Below, one piece after another: positions 4,193-54,696 of a DNA stretch of 64,000 nucleotides (position 1 is its first letter; every line of letters starts with the position of its first letter). Location: positions 124,001 to 188,000 of the forward strand of contig CALUOP010000005.1 in NCBI GenBank assembly GCA_944322305.1, read 5' to 3'. This DNA is from an uncultured Coriobacteriaceae bacterium. GTDB taxonomy: Bacteria; Actinomycetota; Coriobacteriia; Coriobacteriales; Coriobacteriaceae. The translations under genes were made by a program, and so were the position numbers. Below the pieces are notes generated by a model. That model saw nothing but the letters and a program-made list of their open reading frames with translations. It was not told the origin of the DNA and did no database searches.

Positions 4193-6043
4193 ATGACCAT
4201 TTACCGCAAGCAGCGCAGCACGGCCCCGCGCGGTCGTTCGGTGTACGGATCCTACACGCCGAGCTGGGTTGCGCAGCCTGAGCCGCAGCCCGAGCCCGAA
4301 GCGGCGGAGGCCCCTGCGGCCGTGGGGGAGGCGCCGGCGGAAGATCCTGCCGCGTTTGGGTTTGACACCTTCGCCGCGGGGTACGACGCGGAGGAGCCTG
4401 CGGGCTACGACGCGTCGAGCGCGTACGCATACGGCGCGGAGGATGCGGGCGACGCGCTTGCGGCGCCGGCGGCGGGTGACGCCGCGGCGCCTGCGAGCGC
4501 GTTTAACGCGGCATCTGCGGTGCCCGAGCCGGAGCGCATCGGCGCGTTCGGGGCGCTGGACAGCGCGGCGCCGACGTACGACGCCTACGCATGGCCCGCG
4601 CCGGACGACGGCGTGGCTGCTGCGTGGGAAAGCGCAGCCGCCGCGCCTTACGGCGAGCAGGCGGTTGCTGCCTACGACGCGCCCGGCGAGGTCCAGGCGG
4701 TAAGCGAGCCGGCCCCTGAATATGTTGCGGACGACGAGGCCGACGCGGACGTGGCGCCGGTCGCCGACGAGGTCGATGCGGCGGAGGAGCCCGCGGTTGA
4801 GCTGGTAGACGCCACGGTCGAGAACCTCGCCTTCGACGTGTCGCTCGCACAGGGGGCTGCCGACGACCTTGCGGCTGCTGAGGCGCCGGCCGAACCTGCG
4901 CTTGCGCCTACCGAGACGGTTGCGCTTGAAGGAGACGCTGCGCCGGAGGCGGTGGCGGCTGAGGGTGACGCGCTTGGCAAGGAGCCCGCGGCCGAGGATG
5001 CCCTTGCCGCTGACGGAGAGGCCGGGACGTCGGATGGCGAGCCGGCTGAGAAGGCGGAAGCGCCGGCAGCTGAGGCGGACGGGCGGCCCGAGAAACCCGC
5101 TGAGCCCGCGGCCGAGGACGGCACGCACGTTGACGACGCCGCTGCGCCTGCCGCTCCGGCCGAGGTGGCCTCCGGCGCCGATGAGCCCGCTGAGGCGGAA
5201 AGCGCCGCCCCCACCTCCGACCTTATCGCCCCCGCGCCGGTGGATCCGAGCATCGCCCCGGCTCCGGCGGAGCCGGCGGGTGCTGGCGCTTCGGCTTCCG
5301 AGGAGGGCCCGGCGGGTACCACCGTTACGCTCGCGCTCGACTTGGGCGACGAGCCCGCGCCGGCCGCCGCCCCCGCGGAGGACAAGCCCGCGGCAAGGCC
5401 CAAGCGCAAACGCGCCCGCCGCGCGTCTCGCACGGCGCGCGCCGAAGAGCCGGCGCCCAACCGCACGGCGACCGTGCACCGCGCCACCGGCGAGACCGAC
5501 ATCACCGTGGAGCTCGACCTTGACGGTTCGGGCACCGCGCACATCGCCACCGGCGTGCCGTTTTTCGACCACATGCTCGACGCGTTCACGCGCCACGGCT
5601 TGTTCGACCTCACGGTCGACGCAACCGGCGACGTGGAGGTCGACGCGCACCACACCGTTGAGGACACGGGCATCGTGCTGGGTCAGGCCTTTGCCGAGGC
5701 GCTGGGCGAGAAGCGCGGCGTCACGCGCTTCGCCGACGTGGCGGTGCCGCTTGACGAGGCGCTGGTGCAGGCGGTGGTTGACCTTTCGGGCCGCGGCCAG
5801 GCGTACTGCCAGCTGCCGATGCCGACCGAGCGCGTGGGTGCCTTCGACACCGAGCTGGCGGTGGAGTTCTTCTACGCGTTCGCGCGCGACGCCCGCGCCA
5901 CGCTGCACGTGCGCGAGCTGGCCGGCGCCAACAGCCACCACATCATCGAGGCGGCGTTCAAGGCCGCGGGCCGTGCGATGCGCCGCGCCTGCGAGCTGGA
6001 TCCGCGCGTGACGGGCGTTCCCTCCACCAAGGGCTCGCTTTAG
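4193..6043 (+). CDS. hisB: Imidazoleglycerol-phosphate dehydratase with ~420-residue disordered N-terminal extension
   Basis: The last ~195 residues (about 423-616) are a complete IGPD domain: FFDHMLDAFTRHG, DAHHTVEDTGI and NSHHIIEAAFK carry the metal-binding His residues, and VPSTKGSL closes it. It dehydrates imidazole glycerol phosphate. Ahead of it lies an extension not found in ordinary ~195-residue HisB: a basic, Tyr/Arg-rich head (residues 1-25), ~370 residues of Ala/Glu/Pro/Asp-rich low complexity, and a Lys/Arg cluster (about 398-418) just before the enzyme. The frame is open throughout with one strong ribosome site (AAGGGGAGGAG) before ATG 4193; I see no good start and site immediately before the IGPD domain. 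The extension has no recognised fold and its role is unknown. A bifunctional phosphatase-type HisB is excluded: no HAD motif is present. Confidence 0.93.
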   Translation: MTIYRKQRSTAPRGRSVYGSYTPSWVAQPEPQPEPEAAEAPAAVGEAPAEDPAAFGFDTFAAGYDAEEPAGYDASSAYAYGAEDAGDALAAPAAGDAAAPASAFNAASAVPEPERIGAFGALDSAAPTYDAYAWPAPDDGVAAAWESAAAAPYGEQAVAAYDAPGEVQAVSEPAPEYVADDEADADVAPVADEVDAAEEPAVELVDATVENLAFDVSLAQGAADDLAAAEAPAEPALAPTETVALEGDAAPEAVAAEGDALGKEPAAEDALAADGEAGTSDGEPAEKAEAPAAEADGRPEKPAEPAAEDGTHVDDAAAPAAPAEVASGADEPAEAESAAPTSDLIAPAPVDPSIAPAPAEPAGAGASASEEGPAGTTVTLALDLGDEPAPAAAPAEDKPAARPKRKRARRASRTARAEEPAPNRTATVHRATGETDITVELDLDGSGTAHIATGVPFFDHMLDAFTRHGLFDLTVDATGDVEVDAHHTVEDTGIVLGQAFAEALGEKRGVTRFADVAVPLDEALVQAVVDLSGRGQAYCQLPMPTERVGAFDTELAVEFFYAFARDARATLHVRELAGANSHHIIEAAFKAAGRAMRRACELDPRVTGVPSTKGSL

Positions 6044-6205: not shown

Positions 6206-7024
6206 ATGGCCACTCAGCCAACCATCGCGGTTATCGACTACCACAAGGGGAACCTCTCCAGCGTGGCGCGCGGCCTTGCGCGCGCCGGCGCCCATGCGCT
6301 GGTGACCGACGACCCCGCCGCTATCCGCGCGGCTGACGCGCTGGTGCTGCCGGGCGTGGGGTCGTTTTACGACGCGATCACCTTCATGCGCGCAGCGGGG
6401 CAGGACCAGGCGGTGATCGACGCGGTCACCGGTGAGCATGCCGTGCCGTTTTTAGGCATCTGCCTGGGGCTTCAGCTGCTGTTCGACCGCGGCGACGAGG
6501 GGGTTCCGGATCCGGGCGACGAGGCAGTCGCACCGGGCGGCGCGGCGTCTGCGTCCTCTAGTGCCGTTTCCCTTGCCCAAGCCTGCGACGCGCGCGGCTC
6601 GGATCTCGCCCCCGGCACGGTGTTTTGCGATGCGGACGGCAAGCGCTGGGTGCGGGGTTTGGGTCTTCTGCGCGGCTCGTGCACGCTGCTGCCCGCGCGG
6701 CGGCTCAAGGTGCCGCACGTGGGCTGGGACCAGGTGCACCTGACCGAGCGGGGGCGCGCCTGCCCGCTGCTTACCGGCTTTGCCGAGGGCGCCAACATGT
6801 ACTTCACGCACTCCTACGCGCTGGACGCCGACGCCCAGGCCGACGCGGTGGCGGCGGAGACCTTTTACGCGCGTGCGTTCGCCTCGGTGGTGTGGCGCGG
6901 CAACCTCTACGGCTGCCAGTTCCATCCCGAGAAGTCCTCGACCCAGGGCCACGAGATTCTCGAGAACTTCGTGGCGCTTGCCGCGGCCCGCGCCCGCGGC
7001 GACGAGCCAGAGGAGCGCCGTTAG
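6206..7024 (+). CDS. hisH: Imidazole glycerol phosphate synthase, glutamine amidotransferase subunit
   Basis: Class I glutaminase that releases ammonia from glutamine and channels it to HisF. Nucleophile Cys is in GICLGLQLLF (about residue 84), and the His/Glu pair in GCQFHPEKSS near residue 240. 272 residues, against ~200-210 usual: the excess is an inserted Gly/Ala/Ser-rich segment of about 55 residues directly after the nucleophile helix (about 95-145). Start ATG 6206 has AACGGAGG upstream. It follows hisB after a gap holding a REP-like palindrome and precedes hisA by 67 nt. Confidence 0.95.
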   Translation: MATQPTIAVIDYHKGNLSSVARGLARAGAHALVTDDPAAIRAADALVLPGVGSFYDAITFMRAAGQDQAVIDAVTGEHAVPFLGICLGLQLLFDRGDEGVPDPGDEAVAPGGAASASSSAVSLAQACDARGSDLAPGTVFCDADGKRWVRGLGLLRGSCTLLPARRLKVPHVGWDQVHLTERGRACPLLTGFAEGANMYFTHSYALDADAQADAVAAETFYARAFASVVWRGNLYGCQFHPEKSSTQGHEILENFVALAAARARGDEPEERR

Positions 7025-9584: not shown

Positions 9585-9606
9585 CGTAAGCGCCTGATCA
9601 TTGTTA

Positions 9607-9723
9607 TTCCTGTTGTTTTAGGCCTCTGCACGCGGTAGGGCTCCTTACCTGAAAAACAAACCAGCAGGTAAGGAGCTTGCTGTTTTCCGGGCTACTCAGT
9701 GAGGTGGCCCAAAACAACAGGAA
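9607..9723. repeat. Palindromic element A (left flank of nuclease gene)
   Basis: Outer arms at 9607-9624 and 9706-9723 are inverted copies matching at 17 of 18 positions and contain CCTGTTGTTTT and AAAACAACAGG. Nested inside is a perfect 12-bp inverted repeat, GCTCCTTACCTG (9640-9651) and its complement (9665-9676), with a 13-nt A-rich loop and a T-rich tail. It lies just after the his operon and could end its transcription. An element of similar size and sharing the arm core lies at 11303-11423. Confidence 0.75.
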
Positions 9724-9881
9724 CAACGCGAGGGCTGGTCAAACGCGCGATAAAAGAGGGCTCTGCGCCGGGATAGGGCGAACCGTTTCGCATCCGATTG
9801 CGCGGGATAGGGCTCACGGGCAGCGCGCAGGGGTGCGCGCGGCTGGTGTGTTTCATCGCACCTACAACCCGCTTCATATCT

Positions 9882-11302: not shown

Positions 11303-11423
11303 TAAACCTGTTGTTTTTGAATACCATCTAAAGTATGGAGGTTATATAACATTTTGCGACCTGCGGAAATGATGGCAGATAACGGTTGTCTACTTTGCGG
11401 GGGTGTCCAAAACAACAGGTTTA
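11303..11423. repeat. Palindromic element B (right flank of nuclease gene)
   Basis: Arms at 11303-11320 and 11406-11423 are inverted copies matching at 17 of 18 positions, again built around CCTGTTGTTTT / AAAACAACAGG as in element A. The spacer is 85 nt (81 in A). Inside is a 10-bp perfect palindrome GTTATATAAC (11342-11351). It lies between the convergent nuclease and TetR genes, so it could also act as a two-way terminator. Nothing else is evident in 11156-11482. Confidence 0.75.
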
Positions 11424-24937: not shown

Positions 24938-26347
24938 ATGGGCGACACGCAGCGATCGCATAGGCCTACGCGGCTTTCGTACGAGTCGGTGCACGGGCAG
25001 AGCCACCTGCACCGCGCGGTGAGCATCGGGGCGGACAAGCGCGCGAGCCACGCGGCGATGAAGTGGCACGAGCTGGTTGAGGACGCCGCATGCCCGGCGC
25101 GCTGCGCCACGCTGTCCGACAAGAGCTCGATCGTGTGCCGCGCGGGCCTGCTCATGCTCTCGGCCGGCACGGGCGGCTATCGCGTGCGCGAGCTCATGAA
25201 CGCCATCGCCGAGGCGCTCGGCATCACCTGCGTGGTCGACTTGGGCCTCATCACCCTGGAGTGCACTTGCATTGACGGCCACGAAACCTATTCCGAGGTG
25301 GTGACGCTTGCCACCACGAGCGTGAACACCGAGCGCATCGCTTTGATGGTTCAGTTTGCCCAAAAGGCCCAGCGCGCGGCGGGCAGCTGGACGGTGGACG
25401 ACTTCCATCGGCGCATGGACGCCGTCGAGCACACGCCGGGCAACTACGGCCCGCTTGCTGTGGGGCTTGCGGCGGCCTTTGCCTGCGCGGCCTTTGTGTT
25501 TCTGCTCGGCGGCGGTCCCATCGAGATGCTGTGCGCCTTTATCGGCGCGGGCGCGGGCAACCTGGTGCGCCGCCTCATGATCGACCGGCACCTCACACAG
25601 TTCGCCTGCATCGGCGCGGGCGTGGCGGCGGCGTGCCTCACGTATCTGGGGGTGCTTCTCGCCCTGTCGCTGGTGATGCCGTCGGCGCTTGCGCACGAGG
25701 CGGGCTACATCGGCGCCATGCTCTTCGTGATCCCGGGCTTCCCGCTCATCACCAGCGGGTTCGACATCGCCAAACTCGATCTGCGTTCCGGCATCGAGCG
25801 CGCCGTGTACGCCGTCACGGTCATCGTGGTGGCAACGCTCGTGGCGCTGATGGTGGCCGAGCTCGTGCAGCTGTACCCGGACGACTTCACCGACTTGGGG
25901 CTGAACCCTCTCGTGCAGCTGGCCTTGCGCCTGGTCGCGAGCTTCGTGGGCGTGTACGGGTTCTCCATGCTCTTCAACAGCCCGCCTGCCATGGCGGCCA
26001 CGGCGGGCGTGATCGGTGCGGTTGCCAACACGCTGCGCCTTGAGCTGGTAGGGCTCCTCGGGATGCCGGCGGCCTTCGCGGCGTTTGTGGGCGCGTTTGC
26101 GGCGGGGCTGCTCGCCGCGGTGGCGCGTCGCAAGCTCGACTTCCCGCGCATCTCGCTCACCGTGCCCTCCATTGTCATCATGGTGCCGGGACTTTACCTG
26201 TACCGTGCCGTGTACTACCTGGGCACGCTGCAGGTGACCGACGCGCTCTCGTGGGGCACGCAGGCGCTCATGATCGTGCTGTTCCTGCCCATCGGGCTCA
26301 TCGCCGCGCGTATCGCCACCGACAGCCGCTGGCGCCACTGCAACTAG
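24938..26347 (+). CDS. Threonine/serine exporter family membrane protein (ThrE, DUF1212-DUF3815)
   Basis: 469 residues. A hydrophilic N-terminal domain (about 30-165: GTGGYRVRELMNAIAEALG, TSVNTERIALM) matches the cytoplasmic part of ThrE, and about ten membrane segments follow to ~460. The second half, with LTVPSIVIMVPGLYLYRAVYYLG, matches the DUF3815 half that many bacteria encode as a second protein; here both halves are in one chain. Expected to export small amino acids such as threonine or serine using the proton gradient; substrate inferred. Start ATG 24938 behind AAGGGGAGAGG. Two 9-bp GGCGTCACG repeats precede it, and the 30-bp repeat arrays start about 30 nt after its stop. Confidence 0.87.
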   Translation: MGDTQRSHRPTRLSYESVHGQSHLHRAVSIGADKRASHAAMKWHELVEDAACPARCATLSDKSSIVCRAGLLMLSAGTGGYRVRELMNAIAEALGITCVVDLGLITLECTCIDGHETYSEVVTLATTSVNTERIALMVQFAQKAQRAAGSWTVDDFHRRMDAVEHTPGNYGPLAVGLAAAFACAAFVFLLGGGPIEMLCAFIGAGAGNLVRRLMIDRHLTQFACIGAGVAAACLTYLGVLLALSLVMPSALAHEAGYIGAMLFVIPGFPLITSGFDIAKLDLRSGIERAVYAVTVIVVATLVALMVAELVQLYPDDFTDLGLNPLVQLALRLVASFVGVYGFSMLFNSPPAMAATAGVIGAVANTLRLELVGLLGMPAAFAAFVGAFAAGLLAAVARRKLDFPRISLTVPSIVIMVPGLYLYRAVYYLGTLQVTDALSWGTQALMIVLFLPIGLIAARIATDSRWRHCN

Positions 26348-26376: not shown

Positions 26377-26642
26377 CATACGAGACGCATGGGCGAGAAC
26401 CACGCTCGCGCGATGCCTGCGGGTAAAAAGCGCATCCGTACGACGCCGCCGGGCGAAAGGTGTGTCCGTGCGAAGCGTGCGGGCAAAGGCGCGTCCGTAC
26501 GACGCCGCCGGGCAAAGGCACATCCGTACAAAGCATGTGGGCGGAAATCGCATTCATACGAAGCTTATGGGCGAGAATCGAGTTCATACGACGGCCGTGG
26601 GCGAGAAGCGCGCTCGTACGACTGCAATGCTCGCCCACGCGG
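26377..26642 (+). repeat. 30-bp repeat array, left (forward units)
   Basis: Nine adjoining units begin at 26377, 26407, 26437, 26467, 26496, 26525, 26555, 26585 and 26615. Seven are 30 nt and two (26467, 26496) are 29 nt, so no reading frame is kept. Shared positions: CRTACGA(A)GC at the start, then about ten bases in GTGGGCGA(A/G)AA, then a variable end. The last unit folds back: GTGGGCGAG (26597-26605) pairs with CTCGCCCAC (26630-26638). Confidence 0.85.
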
Positions 26643-26755
26643 TTTCTAGACACGTTTTTATGCTGTTATGGTTGTTCTGGACGAGCACGATATAGCATCG
26701 TGAGTTTTCTTGCGAGAGGCGAGGGCCTGTGCTGTGGAGTCTCTTGCTCGCAGAC
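26643..26755. other. AT-richer centre between the opposed repeat arrays
   Basis: About 113 nt separating the two arrays, including a poly-T run and ATATAGCAT. It lacks the repeat unit and I find no gene in it. It could hold a promoter or a binding site, but no well-spaced -35/-10 pair is convincing. Confidence 0.5.
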
Positions 26756-26995
26756 TTCGTACGGACGCGCTTTTCGCCCAACGTTTTCGTATCAGTGCGC
26801 TCTTCGCCCACGAGCTTCGTATGACCGTGTTTTTCGCCCACAGGCTTCGTATCGATGCGGATTCCGCCCATGGGTTTCGTGCCAGTGCGGATTTCGCCCG
26901 CGGGTTTCGTATCGGTGCGCGTTTTGCCCACGAGCTTCGTACGGACGCGCTTTTCGCCCGCCAGGATCGTGCCGGCGCCTGTCCGAACCACGCCT
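26756..26995 (-). repeat. 30-bp repeat array, right (reverse units)
   Basis: Eight units spaced at exactly 30 nt begin at 26756, 26786, 26816, 26846, 26876, 26906, 26936 and 26966; the last is weak. Each reads TTCGTAnnnGnGCG then TTCGCCCA, the reverse complement of the left-array unit. The two arrays therefore face each other. The sequence from 26996 to the next gene start at 27129 has no further clear unit. Confidence 0.85.
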
Positions 26996-27128: not shown

Positions 27129-29228
27129 TTGAGCGAGGCAACGGGGCATACGGAGCAGGCGGGCGCGCAGGCGCGCAAAGGCGTGGCGCGTCACGTGGAA
27201 AGGCTGCGGGAACGCGCGATGGCGGCGCTGCGCACGTGGCGCACCGAGACCCTTCCCGGCTTGCCGGCCCAGTTCAAAAAGGCCGCTCCCACCTCGGCGT
27301 TTTTCATTGTCCTGTTCTGGGTTACCGTGCTTACCTTCGGGATAAGCCACGTGATGCCCGTCTCGTGCTACACCACGCTGTTCAACGTGCGTCACAGCAA
27401 GTACAACCCGCCCGCGCAGTACGCGCGCTTTTACCTGGTGAGCCTGCTGGCACTTGCGGCGGCGCGCTTGGCCACGCTCAACCTGGCGCTGTGCGCGGCG
27501 CTCAACCTGGCGATGCCGTTCGTCTTCGTGTTCATGCGCTCCTCGCAGCTGAACCCGCGACGCTACTTTCCCTACATGATGCTCTTCCTTTTTCTGCAGC
27601 TGCGCCCCGAGTTTCTCGACAACCTGCCCCAGCAGGTGCTCCTTCTTCTCATGTGCTGCACCGTCCTCACTGCAGCGCTTGTGATCTCAGGCGTGGTGCG
27701 TCATGCGGCCGATGCCAACGTGGCCAAGCTGCACGAGAACATCCGTCGCCTGGCCGAGGTGCTGCAGCACATGGCCGACCACGGCATCGGTCCCGCTACG
27801 CGTCCCATGGTGCTGAAGCTGCGCGCCGACTTCTCCGATTTGGCCTACGCCGTGCGCGAGGATTCCAGCGTGCAGCCGCTTATCGCCAACCTGTACGAGA
27901 TGTTCGCCATGCTCACCCAGCGCACGGCCTACCTGGTTGGCCGCCTGGAGTGGCACGAGGGCCCCGGCTGCCCGCACGCTCCGTACCTGTGCGAGCTCGC
28001 CGAGCTCACGCGCGCAGTCGACCAGCAGATCAACGTCACCGACAACCGCGTGCTCATCCGCCAGGCCGAGCAGCTCGCCGCTGGGGCGCCCTCCATCGCC
28101 AACGACCGCTTCCGGCTGTTTTACCGCAGCTACCTGCGGATGCTCATCCTCATCCTGCGCGACGCCGCAAGCCCGCACCGCCATGCCTGGCATCTCTCCA
28201 CCGCCAACCAGCTGCGCGTGGCGTCGTTCCGCAAGCACCCCAGCCTTGACTCCTTCGAGCTGCGCTTCACCATCCGCTGCGCCGTCATCATGGCCGTGTC
28301 GTGCACGGTGAGCCTAGCGATGCCGGTGGACCACCTGTACTGGTTCCCGCTCACGGCGTTTCTGCTCACCCAGCCCTGGCCGGCTGAGAGCATCCACCGC
28401 ATGCGCACCCGCACGGCGGGCACGGTGCTGGGCTGCGTCTTCGTGCACGCGGTGTCGCTTCTGGGTCTGCCGTACGCGGCGGTCATGCTGCTGGGGATGG
28501 TGCTCATCACCTGCCTGTACTCCTCAACCCCGGGCGGCACGGTCATGGCGTTTTTCGCCACGGCCTACGCGCTGTCCATGGCGTCCATCTCCATAGGCGA
28601 CCGCTACGCCATCGGGATGCGCCTGGCGTGCCTGGCGGCGTCGGTGGCGCTGGTGTTCGCGGTGAACCGCCTAGTCGTTCCCACGAGCGACCGCCGGCTG
28701 TTCCTGGCCAACGCGCACCAGCTCTTCGATCTGATCGAGCGCTATTGGGGGCTTCTGCGCACGAGCCTCACCTCCGACGTGGACGTGGCTGCGTCGAGCG
28801 AGGCGCTGCTGCATTTCCAGATGGTGCACGGACGCGCGGCAGCTTACCTGCGGAGCCTGCCAGAAGGCGACGAGGCCGGGCGGCGGGTCAAACACGCTGC
28901 GCGGCGGGTGCTCTTCTGCCTGTGGGAGCTCATGAGCGAGCTCGAGCAGCTGGGGATGCTCATCCGCTCCGGCGAGGTTAGCGAGGCCGAGTACGAGAAC
29001 CTGGGCCTGTTCATGGTGGTGGCCGAGAACCACTGCGTTCCGTTTACCTACGACGAGCGCATGCGCCCGGCCGAGCTGCTGGCCGACGCGTTTGCCGAGG
29101 AGGACCTGCGGTACGTGCTGGGGCAGTACCTCGAGCGTGCGCGGGCATTGGCGGCGGCGCTCAAGGACGCGCGCGAGCTTATCGGCGAGCGACCGCGTTA
29201 TGTGGAGGAGATCCGAGGCGAGGCGTAG
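27129..29228 (+). CDS. FUSC-family inner-membrane protein (YccS/aromatic-efflux type)
   Basis: About 699 residues. Two blocks of membrane segments (about 55-200 and 385-520) alternate with long cytoplasmic helices, the layout of FUSC/YccS/AaeB proteins. The second block includes VIMAVSCTVSLAMPVDHLYWFPLTAFLLTQPWP-like sequence and TRTAGTVLGCVFVH, typical of the FUSC_2 domain. The family is linked to efflux of aromatic acids or toxic compounds; the substrate here is unknown. The start is uncertain: TTG 27129 is the first in-frame start and has a modest GGGCAGGG upstream; GTG 27183 or ATG 27219 are possible. It follows the opposed repeat arrays, so any regulation through them would act here. Confidence 0.85.
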   Translation: MSEATGHTEQAGAQARKGVARHVERLRERAMAALRTWRTETLPGLPAQFKKAAPTSAFFIVLFWVTVLTFGISHVMPVSCYTTLFNVRHSKYNPPAQYARFYLVSLLALAAARLATLNLALCAALNLAMPFVFVFMRSSQLNPRRYFPYMMLFLFLQLRPEFLDNLPQQVLLLLMCCTVLTAALVISGVVRHAADANVAKLHENIRRLAEVLQHMADHGIGPATRPMVLKLRADFSDLAYAVREDSSVQPLIANLYEMFAMLTQRTAYLVGRLEWHEGPGCPHAPYLCELAELTRAVDQQINVTDNRVLIRQAEQLAAGAPSIANDRFRLFYRSYLRMLILILRDAASPHRHAWHLSTANQLRVASFRKHPSLDSFELRFTIRCAVIMAVSCTVSLAMPVDHLYWFPLTAFLLTQPWPAESIHRMRTRTAGTVLGCVFVHAVSLLGLPYAAVMLLGMVLITCLYSSTPGGTVMAFFATAYALSMASISIGDRYAIGMRLACLAASVALVFAVNRLVVPTSDRRLFLANAHQLFDLIERYWGLLRTSLTSDVDVAASSEALLHFQMVHGRAAAYLRSLPEGDEAGRRVKHAARRVLFCLWELMSELEQLGMLIRSGEVSEAEYENLGLFMVVAENHCVPFTYDERMRPAELLADAFAEEDLRYVLGQYLERARALAAALKDARELIGERPRYVEEIRGEA

Positions 29229-32354: not shown

Positions 32355-32722
32355 GGGGGCGACTGGTTTCGACGTGATAGCTCTGAGAGAGGAAGCAGGC
32401 CGTGGTCTCCTCACCACGCTAAACAGGGGTACTGTCAAATGAATTGACAACGATTCTTCTTACGAGCCTCAGCTGGCTCTTGCCGCTTAATTAACAGCAG
32501 GCACGTCTAACCGGGGATCATCCCCGTTCCCGGGGCGACGTCATTTCAGGGGATCGCTCGCGCGCACGTAGGCGGTATGGCGCGCGCTAAGACCGAACCG
32601 ACTCGGACGCCGCGGGTGCGTTGCCGCTCCCAACGCGTCTTAAATCCAAACGGCAACTGAGCCTGGAGATGCCTCTCAGGGGGTTATCGCGGACCGGAGT
32701 TCGATTCTCCGCGCCTCCACCA
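32355..32722 (+). ncRNA. ssrA: Transfer-messenger RNA (tmRNA)
   Basis: Rescues stalled ribosomes and tags the unfinished protein for proteolysis. The 5' end GGGGGCGACTGGTTTCGACG and the 3' end ...GCGCCTCCACCA pair as a 7-bp acceptor stem with one G-U; the T arm is GGAGTTCGATTCTCC. The tag frame ends at TAA (32488-32490) and reads about N-D-S-S-Y-E-P-Q-L-A-L-A-A, with Asp (32446-32448) as possible first codon; the LALAA end fits ClpXP recognition. The length of 368 nt, with the pseudoknot region between tag and T arm, is normal. CCA is encoded. Confidence 0.96.
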
Positions 32723-54561: not shown

Positions 54562-54696
54562 GGGGCACATTGGATGTGGTTTAGGGGTGGGATTCCCGGT
54601 AGCCAAGAACGCGGCAAGCTTTCTACCTGCGGGTTCTTCGGGCGGAATGTGCCGTGTACCAAGGGGGACCGCGCTAAACAACATCCAATGTGCCCC
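54562..54696. repeat. Inverted-repeat element of 135 bp
   Basis: Two 23-bp arms (54562-54584 and 54674-54696) are inverted copies matching at 22 of 23 positions; the left begins GGGGCACATTGGATGT. The 89-bp interior has a minor AAGAAC/GTTCTT pair and no gene. It lies between the methyltransferase promoter and the DUF711 terminator and could be a small non-autonomous mobile or REP-type element. Confidence 0.7.

Follow-up and report, generated by a model that had tools for sequence, protein, structure and literature searches.

The window (the whole 64,000-nt stretch of DNA analyzed) carries one of 19 intergenic elements of its genome, G000, all with the same obligate layout: a 30-bp unit under position-specific constraint is repeated in two opposed arrays around a center of helically phased length. 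We propose that the elements serve as DNA-binding platforms, each multi-site and dyad-symmetric, that are architectural rather than operators, a reading that we hold with about even confidence. Protein binding, nucleation at a palindromic cap, and the architectural role itself are what we infer from these features.

Anatomy of the element in the window

The left array, on the minus strand, comprises about nine units of 30 bp (positions 26377 to 26628). Its outer units are decayed, including one from 26377, and are followed by units at 26391, 26421, and 26451, two units with 29-nt steps between 26451 and 26539, and units at 26539, 26569, and 26599. A 38-bp palindromic cap (26599 to 26636), absent from the description in the initial annotation, lies at the inner edge of this array; here the last minus unit and a plus unit overlap at an offset of 8 nt, and the palindrome is centered on the one TCGTACGA core that both units use. 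The 113-bp center (26637 to 26749) has a G+C content of 50%, compared with 66% genome-wide, and is related to the centers at G000:C6:149.6k and C4:195.3k. It does not contain the CAGGTA midpoint motif of other elements, and the core-to-core distance across it is 143 bp. On the plus strand, the right array keeps exact register over seven strong 30-bp units (26750 to 26959), beyond which lies decayed outer sequence (26960 to 26995) with an eighth unit at 26960 to 26989. The opposed arrays, the exact 30-nt spacing on the right, the two 29-nt units on the left, and the AT-rich center of ~113 bp, all noted in the initial annotation, were borne out.

The element is flanked by a threonine/serine exporter gene (ThrE, ThrE_2; 24938 to 26347, plus strand) and a FUSC_2 family membrane protein gene (27129 to 29228, plus strand). 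This placement had been reported correctly, but the pair of arrays is not tied to it, being one of many in the genome, and the same site is empty in the congener G003, the nearest species to carry arrays, where the exporter-FUSC gap is 199 bp. A tmRNA gene (Rfam RF00023) occupies positions 32355 to 32722 of the window.

Copy number, layout, and genomic placement

Further sites in G000 first surfaced in a BLAST search with the window element. A profile scan with a threshold of at least 18 bits, covering ~98.7% of the genome, returned 236 unit matches and none in the reversed genome, so the arrays are not a product of chance. All but three of the matches (233 of 236) fall inside the 19 elements; the remaining three are isolated and score 18 to 22 bits. 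Every element is intergenic, and the order is always minus array, center, plus array. Elements range from 331 to 859 bp in length with up to 13 units per arm, and in many of them the unit core is reused in a palindromic cap at the array/center junction.

Neighboring genes are in tandem at 12 elements, divergent at 4, and convergent at 3, and they are functionally unrelated (e.g., ftsY/ffh, purF/purM, hypC/hypF, and pyrG). Since the neighbors are unrelated and all orientations occur, an architectural role is favored over local regulation. Array elements showed no 3′-end bias. With respect to origin and terminus, orthologs of the flanking genes were dispersed around the closed chromosome of a relative with no pattern, and synteny was weak.

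Consensus and constraint of the 30-bp unit

The profile built from the units has the consensus AnnnnnnTCGTAYSARYGnnnTTYTCGCCC (28 bits), in which positions 1, 8 to 18, and 22 to 30 are conserved and positions 2 to 7 and 19 to 21 are nearly free. Apart from TCGTAYGA the unit is non-palindromic; each arm is unidirectional, with the unit running 5′ to 3′ away from the center in both arrays, and palindromes occur only at the caps. Of ~260 steps between units, 230 measure 30 nt; 29-, 31-, and 32-nt steps also occur. Identity between units of different elements was 0.625, compared with 0.626 expected from column frequencies, and 0.325 against an expected 0.328 at the free positions. Since this agreement leaves no pair of elements alike beyond the consensus, there are no recent copies and specific positions are under selection, so some reader of the unit maintains the conserved columns. 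Neighbors within one array are slightly more similar (68%), which suggests local duplication. Units ~63 to 68% alike are not the near-identical repeats with unique spacers of CRISPR, and, unlike in a CRISPR repeat/spacer layout, conserved and free positions interleave inside one 30-nt period. Scores fall from ~30 bits at inner units to ~24 bits at the outermost. The suggestion that the arrays are decayed mobile-element ends may hold, but decay is limited to the outer units, and conservation of the inner ones is strong.

Helical phasing of the center

Distances between the innermost TCGTAYGA cores cluster at 112 to 114, 121 to 125, 133 to 136, 143 to 144, and 166 to 167 bp, with one at 70 bp. 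After related centers and orthologous pairs were removed, the 22 remaining distances gave R = 0.79 with a best period of ~10.6 bp, although centers with unrecognized common descent would inflate R. All center lengths taken together gave a best period of 10.25 bp, for an overall quantization near 10.2 to 10.6 bp. Phasing of this strength was reached in 0 of 3,000 simulations under each of two null models, one uniform and the other permitting whole 30-bp units to be gained or lost. What the sequences argue for most strongly is that the units would be DNA recognition sites and the two arrays built in phase. The initial annotation had suggested a protein bound along one face of the DNA; such a putative protein agrees with both the helical phasing of the center and the position-specific constraint.

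Distribution and inheritance among relatives

A search of relatives for the unit, suggested in the initial annotation, showed that it is not confined to the window: in addition to the elements of G000, 17 complete opposed ones occur in G003, along with a few remnants. The other two congeners, G001 and G002, have no more than a few weak, single matches, and their orthologous sites that were checked comprise the same gene pairs with short, unit-free intergenic regions. No arrays were found beyond G000 and G003 among 67 family genomes or 299 sampled order genomes, in which the other matches were single ones only (G009 and G273). The unit had no match among viral contigs, plasmids, or phages, and a phage or plasmid origin was rejected on this ground.

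Six element sites are common to G000 and G003—hypC-hypF, purF-purM, two around one gene on C7, one on C5, and a pyrG neighbor (one flank)—and a possible seventh persists as a remnant. Synteny, which the initial annotation proposed to test, is present at six or seven sites but not at the window's own. One G003 element separates genes whose G000 counterparts overlap, and another G003 array site is occupied in G000 by a dyad of a different family (type B, below). On C2 of G003, two isolated minus-strand units (L085, 3463 to 3560) adjoin a predicted serine recombinase gene and are possibly an interrupted element.

A midpoint motif shared with sibling dyads

Of the 36 array midpoints, 14 (including 8 of the 19 in G000) carry a motif near AAAAnCGCWGGTAGA, the window's not among them, compared with 5% of random intergenic positions (P ~ 1e-9 for enrichment at array midpoints). 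The same motif centers other dyad families in G000 that have different, species-specific arms. Type B dyads (13 copies) have 26-bp inverted arms TGCAAACCTCnnnnTTAAAGTGCACA spaced 122 to 124 bp start to start around a CAGGTA midpoint; examples are C13:17468-17618, C2:77167-77317, and C7:103158-103306, with 10 others. Type C dyads (25 extracted copies, 130 to 131 bp each as cut) have AAAATGGATGTTGTTTT arms, inner AAGTAGA/TCTACTT, the center GCAGGTAGA, and a rigid length of ~130 bp; one lies in the window at 54563 to 54695, and type C-like arms with TGTTGTTTT are found at 9603 to 9727 and 11304 to 11422. Further dyad families were also seen in G000. The arms of types B and C are all but restricted to G000, and the exact type C arm pattern was not found in 59 other genomes. 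Paired arm changes within an element far exceed expectation in both types (21 versus 5.2 in type B and 37 versus 12.8 in type C); such arm covariation is seen in these dyads but not in the 30-bp arrays. Of 46 sibling dyads, 14 lie between convergent genes, an enrichment relative to 14% (P = 0.004), and an interpretation of them as invertible promoters is disfavored by that enrichment.

The central motif, in contrast to these arms, is enriched in most of the Coriobacteriales sampled: the pattern AANNCSCWGGTARA exceeds its reversed control in most of 60 genomes. An inverted pair of AANNCSCWGGTARA was observed upstream of mraZ in G001 and G002 (L094, ~6590 to 6615; L102, ~1600 to 1630). Olsenella uli An820 (L064, ~4700 to 4830) has the CAGGTA midpoint motif with its own arms, TCGAGTCTGTACTTTT, over a span of 123 bp upstream of a FUSC gene. 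We tentatively suggest an undescribed class of bacterial chromosomal element. Its central site, AAAAnCGCWGGTAGA, would be order-wide and its arms lineage-specific, placed symmetrically on either side at distances fixed by the helical repeat. In two species these arms may have grown into opposed arrays that run outward, with as many as 13 binding sites each, and on which a large symmetric nucleoprotein complex would form at ~20 chromosomal places.

Platform model and competing explanations

In the proposed platform, a putative sequence-specific protein would recognize each unit through the TCGTAYGA core and TTYTCGCCCA. The protein would bind the cap beside the center as a symmetric pair, and further copies would occupy the direct repeats of each arm from the center outward, along the same helix face, while the length of the center would hold the arrays in helical register to form one symmetric nucleoprotein complex. 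Some 20 such complexes per chromosome could serve an anchoring, looping, boundary, or centromere-like role. Against the platform, no binding protein was found, presence or absence varies at several G000/G003 sites, there is no origin-related pattern, and the motif at the 14 midpoints is that of REP/REPIN-like dyads. That two congeners and the other family genomes lack arrays is odd for an essential architectural system.

Since the midpoint motif also centers other dyad families, a mobile or REP-like origin is a serious rival. The elements would then be non-autonomous REP/BIME/foldback-like mobile or selfish repeats, with units as sites for a trans-acting enzyme and arrays as expanded dyad ends that spread slowly and then diverged. 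We regard this origin as possible but doubtful. It is consistent with the differing presence of elements at orthologous sites, the site that holds an array in G003 and a type B dyad in G000, the CAGGTA midpoint common to families with species-specific covarying arms, and the preference of sibling dyads for convergent genes. A Y1 transposase (PF01797) is likewise present in G000 and G003, one gene each and at the same place, and not in G001, G002, or G006. However, the G000 gene, which is of the REP-associated type (C4:263591-266920; L246), is flanked by an unrelated repeat, GGGGACGTGTTCC, copies of which occur elsewhere in the genome, and no array unit lies near either gene. The transposase is therefore not an obvious array partner, and this RAYT was rejected as such although its presence pattern fits. 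The lack of recent copies and of a 3′-end bias of array elements also speaks against mobility. No defined ends or target-site duplication could be made out at the empty sites, whose flanks are too diverged for a duplication to show.

Operator arrays through which a transcription factor would act on adjacent genes are improbable. Direct repeats with palindromes in intergenic positions would suit a regulator, but the neighbors are unrelated housekeeping genes in all orientations, including promoterless convergent pairs, and the same gene pairs lack arrays in G001 and G002. We consider a structured RNA, in which transcribed opposed arrays form one long imperfect hairpin, very improbable. The strand does fold far better than shuffled sequences (z = −12), as expected of any inverted repeat, but nested opposed units are not more alike than non-nested ones (0.645 versus 0.632; 0.354 versus 0.353 at free positions), and thus no long hairpin is being maintained. 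Helical quantization of the center is, moreover, a property of DNA. Opposed units show no compensatory changes and the site in the window matches no Rfam family, so the structured transcript offered in the initial annotation was not upheld; its broader proposal of DNA or RNA function stands at the DNA level, given the constraint, the phasing, and the absence of long-hairpin covariation. Degenerate protein-coding repeats can be dismissed almost entirely. Although 30 bases equal ten codons and overlapping open frames are present, steps of 29, 31, and 32 nt occur, the unit lies on both strands, each of the three codon phases includes fully conserved positions, and the free positions run consecutively. 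The frames contain no convincing domain, with one HC2 match below the cutoff. Since potentially silent third-codon positions are invariant and odd-length steps are present, the unit is not coding, in agreement with the earlier argument against protein, and no coding signature was seen.

Comparison with known systems

A literature search found no bacterial element with these features, in keeping with the initial annotation, which knew of no described element of this form. The arrays resemble foldback transposable elements, which in Drosophila and nematodes consist of long inverted repeats, themselves built of tandem subrepeats, on either side of a short middle. Foldback elements are eukaryotic, however, whereas the arrays have no transposase, no defined ends, copies unlike one another, and helical phasing. 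ParB-parS offers sequence-specific chromosomal sites and the idea of spreading, but the unit is unlike the TGTTTCACGTGAAACA-like site of parS. A canonical parS cluster exists separately near dnaA in G003 (C7:61089-71257), and the arrays were rejected as a parS replacement for that reason.

Split plasmid centromeres likewise have two blocks of sites flanking a center. In R1 parC and tubC, two tandem-site blocks surround a central stretch and the DNA is wrapped on an oligomer (PMC5016525). These centromeres are each one locus upstream of their own partition operon, with direct repeats in R1 parC (PMC5016525), in contrast to the ~19 chromosomal loci described here, whose arrays are opposed and have no partition genes beside them. 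The REP unit is an imperfect palindrome, and units are ordered in alternation or as inverted pairs (PMC2817692, PMC3116915). The REP/BIME/REPIN group, including RIBs and BIME-1 with its IHF-binding center, is similar to the arrays in being dispersed, extragenic, multi-copy, and species-specific, with inverted arms around a center that may bind protein. Unlike REP/BIME, the arrays have non-palindromic 30-bp units, up to 13 of them in one direction per arm, and helically phased centers, and the G000 RAYT is flanked by another repeat and not by array units. Unlike REPINs, the array arms lack paired compensating changes, which the sibling types B and C have.

Because the defining tests for REP/BIME, CRISPR, type II/III partition centromeres, parS, and structured RNA failed, the arrays were assigned to no family. 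They are best placed among dispersed intergenic repeat elements, and there is a fair chance that they are categorically new. If they are protein-binding platforms, they would represent a multi-copy, dyad-symmetric bacterial chromosomal structure without a named partner protein; if mobile, they would be a repeat family with tandem, helically phased arrays as ends. On either reading, a common central motif with lineage-specific arms provides a comparative handle on the turnover of dispersed intergenic elements in the Coriobacteriales.
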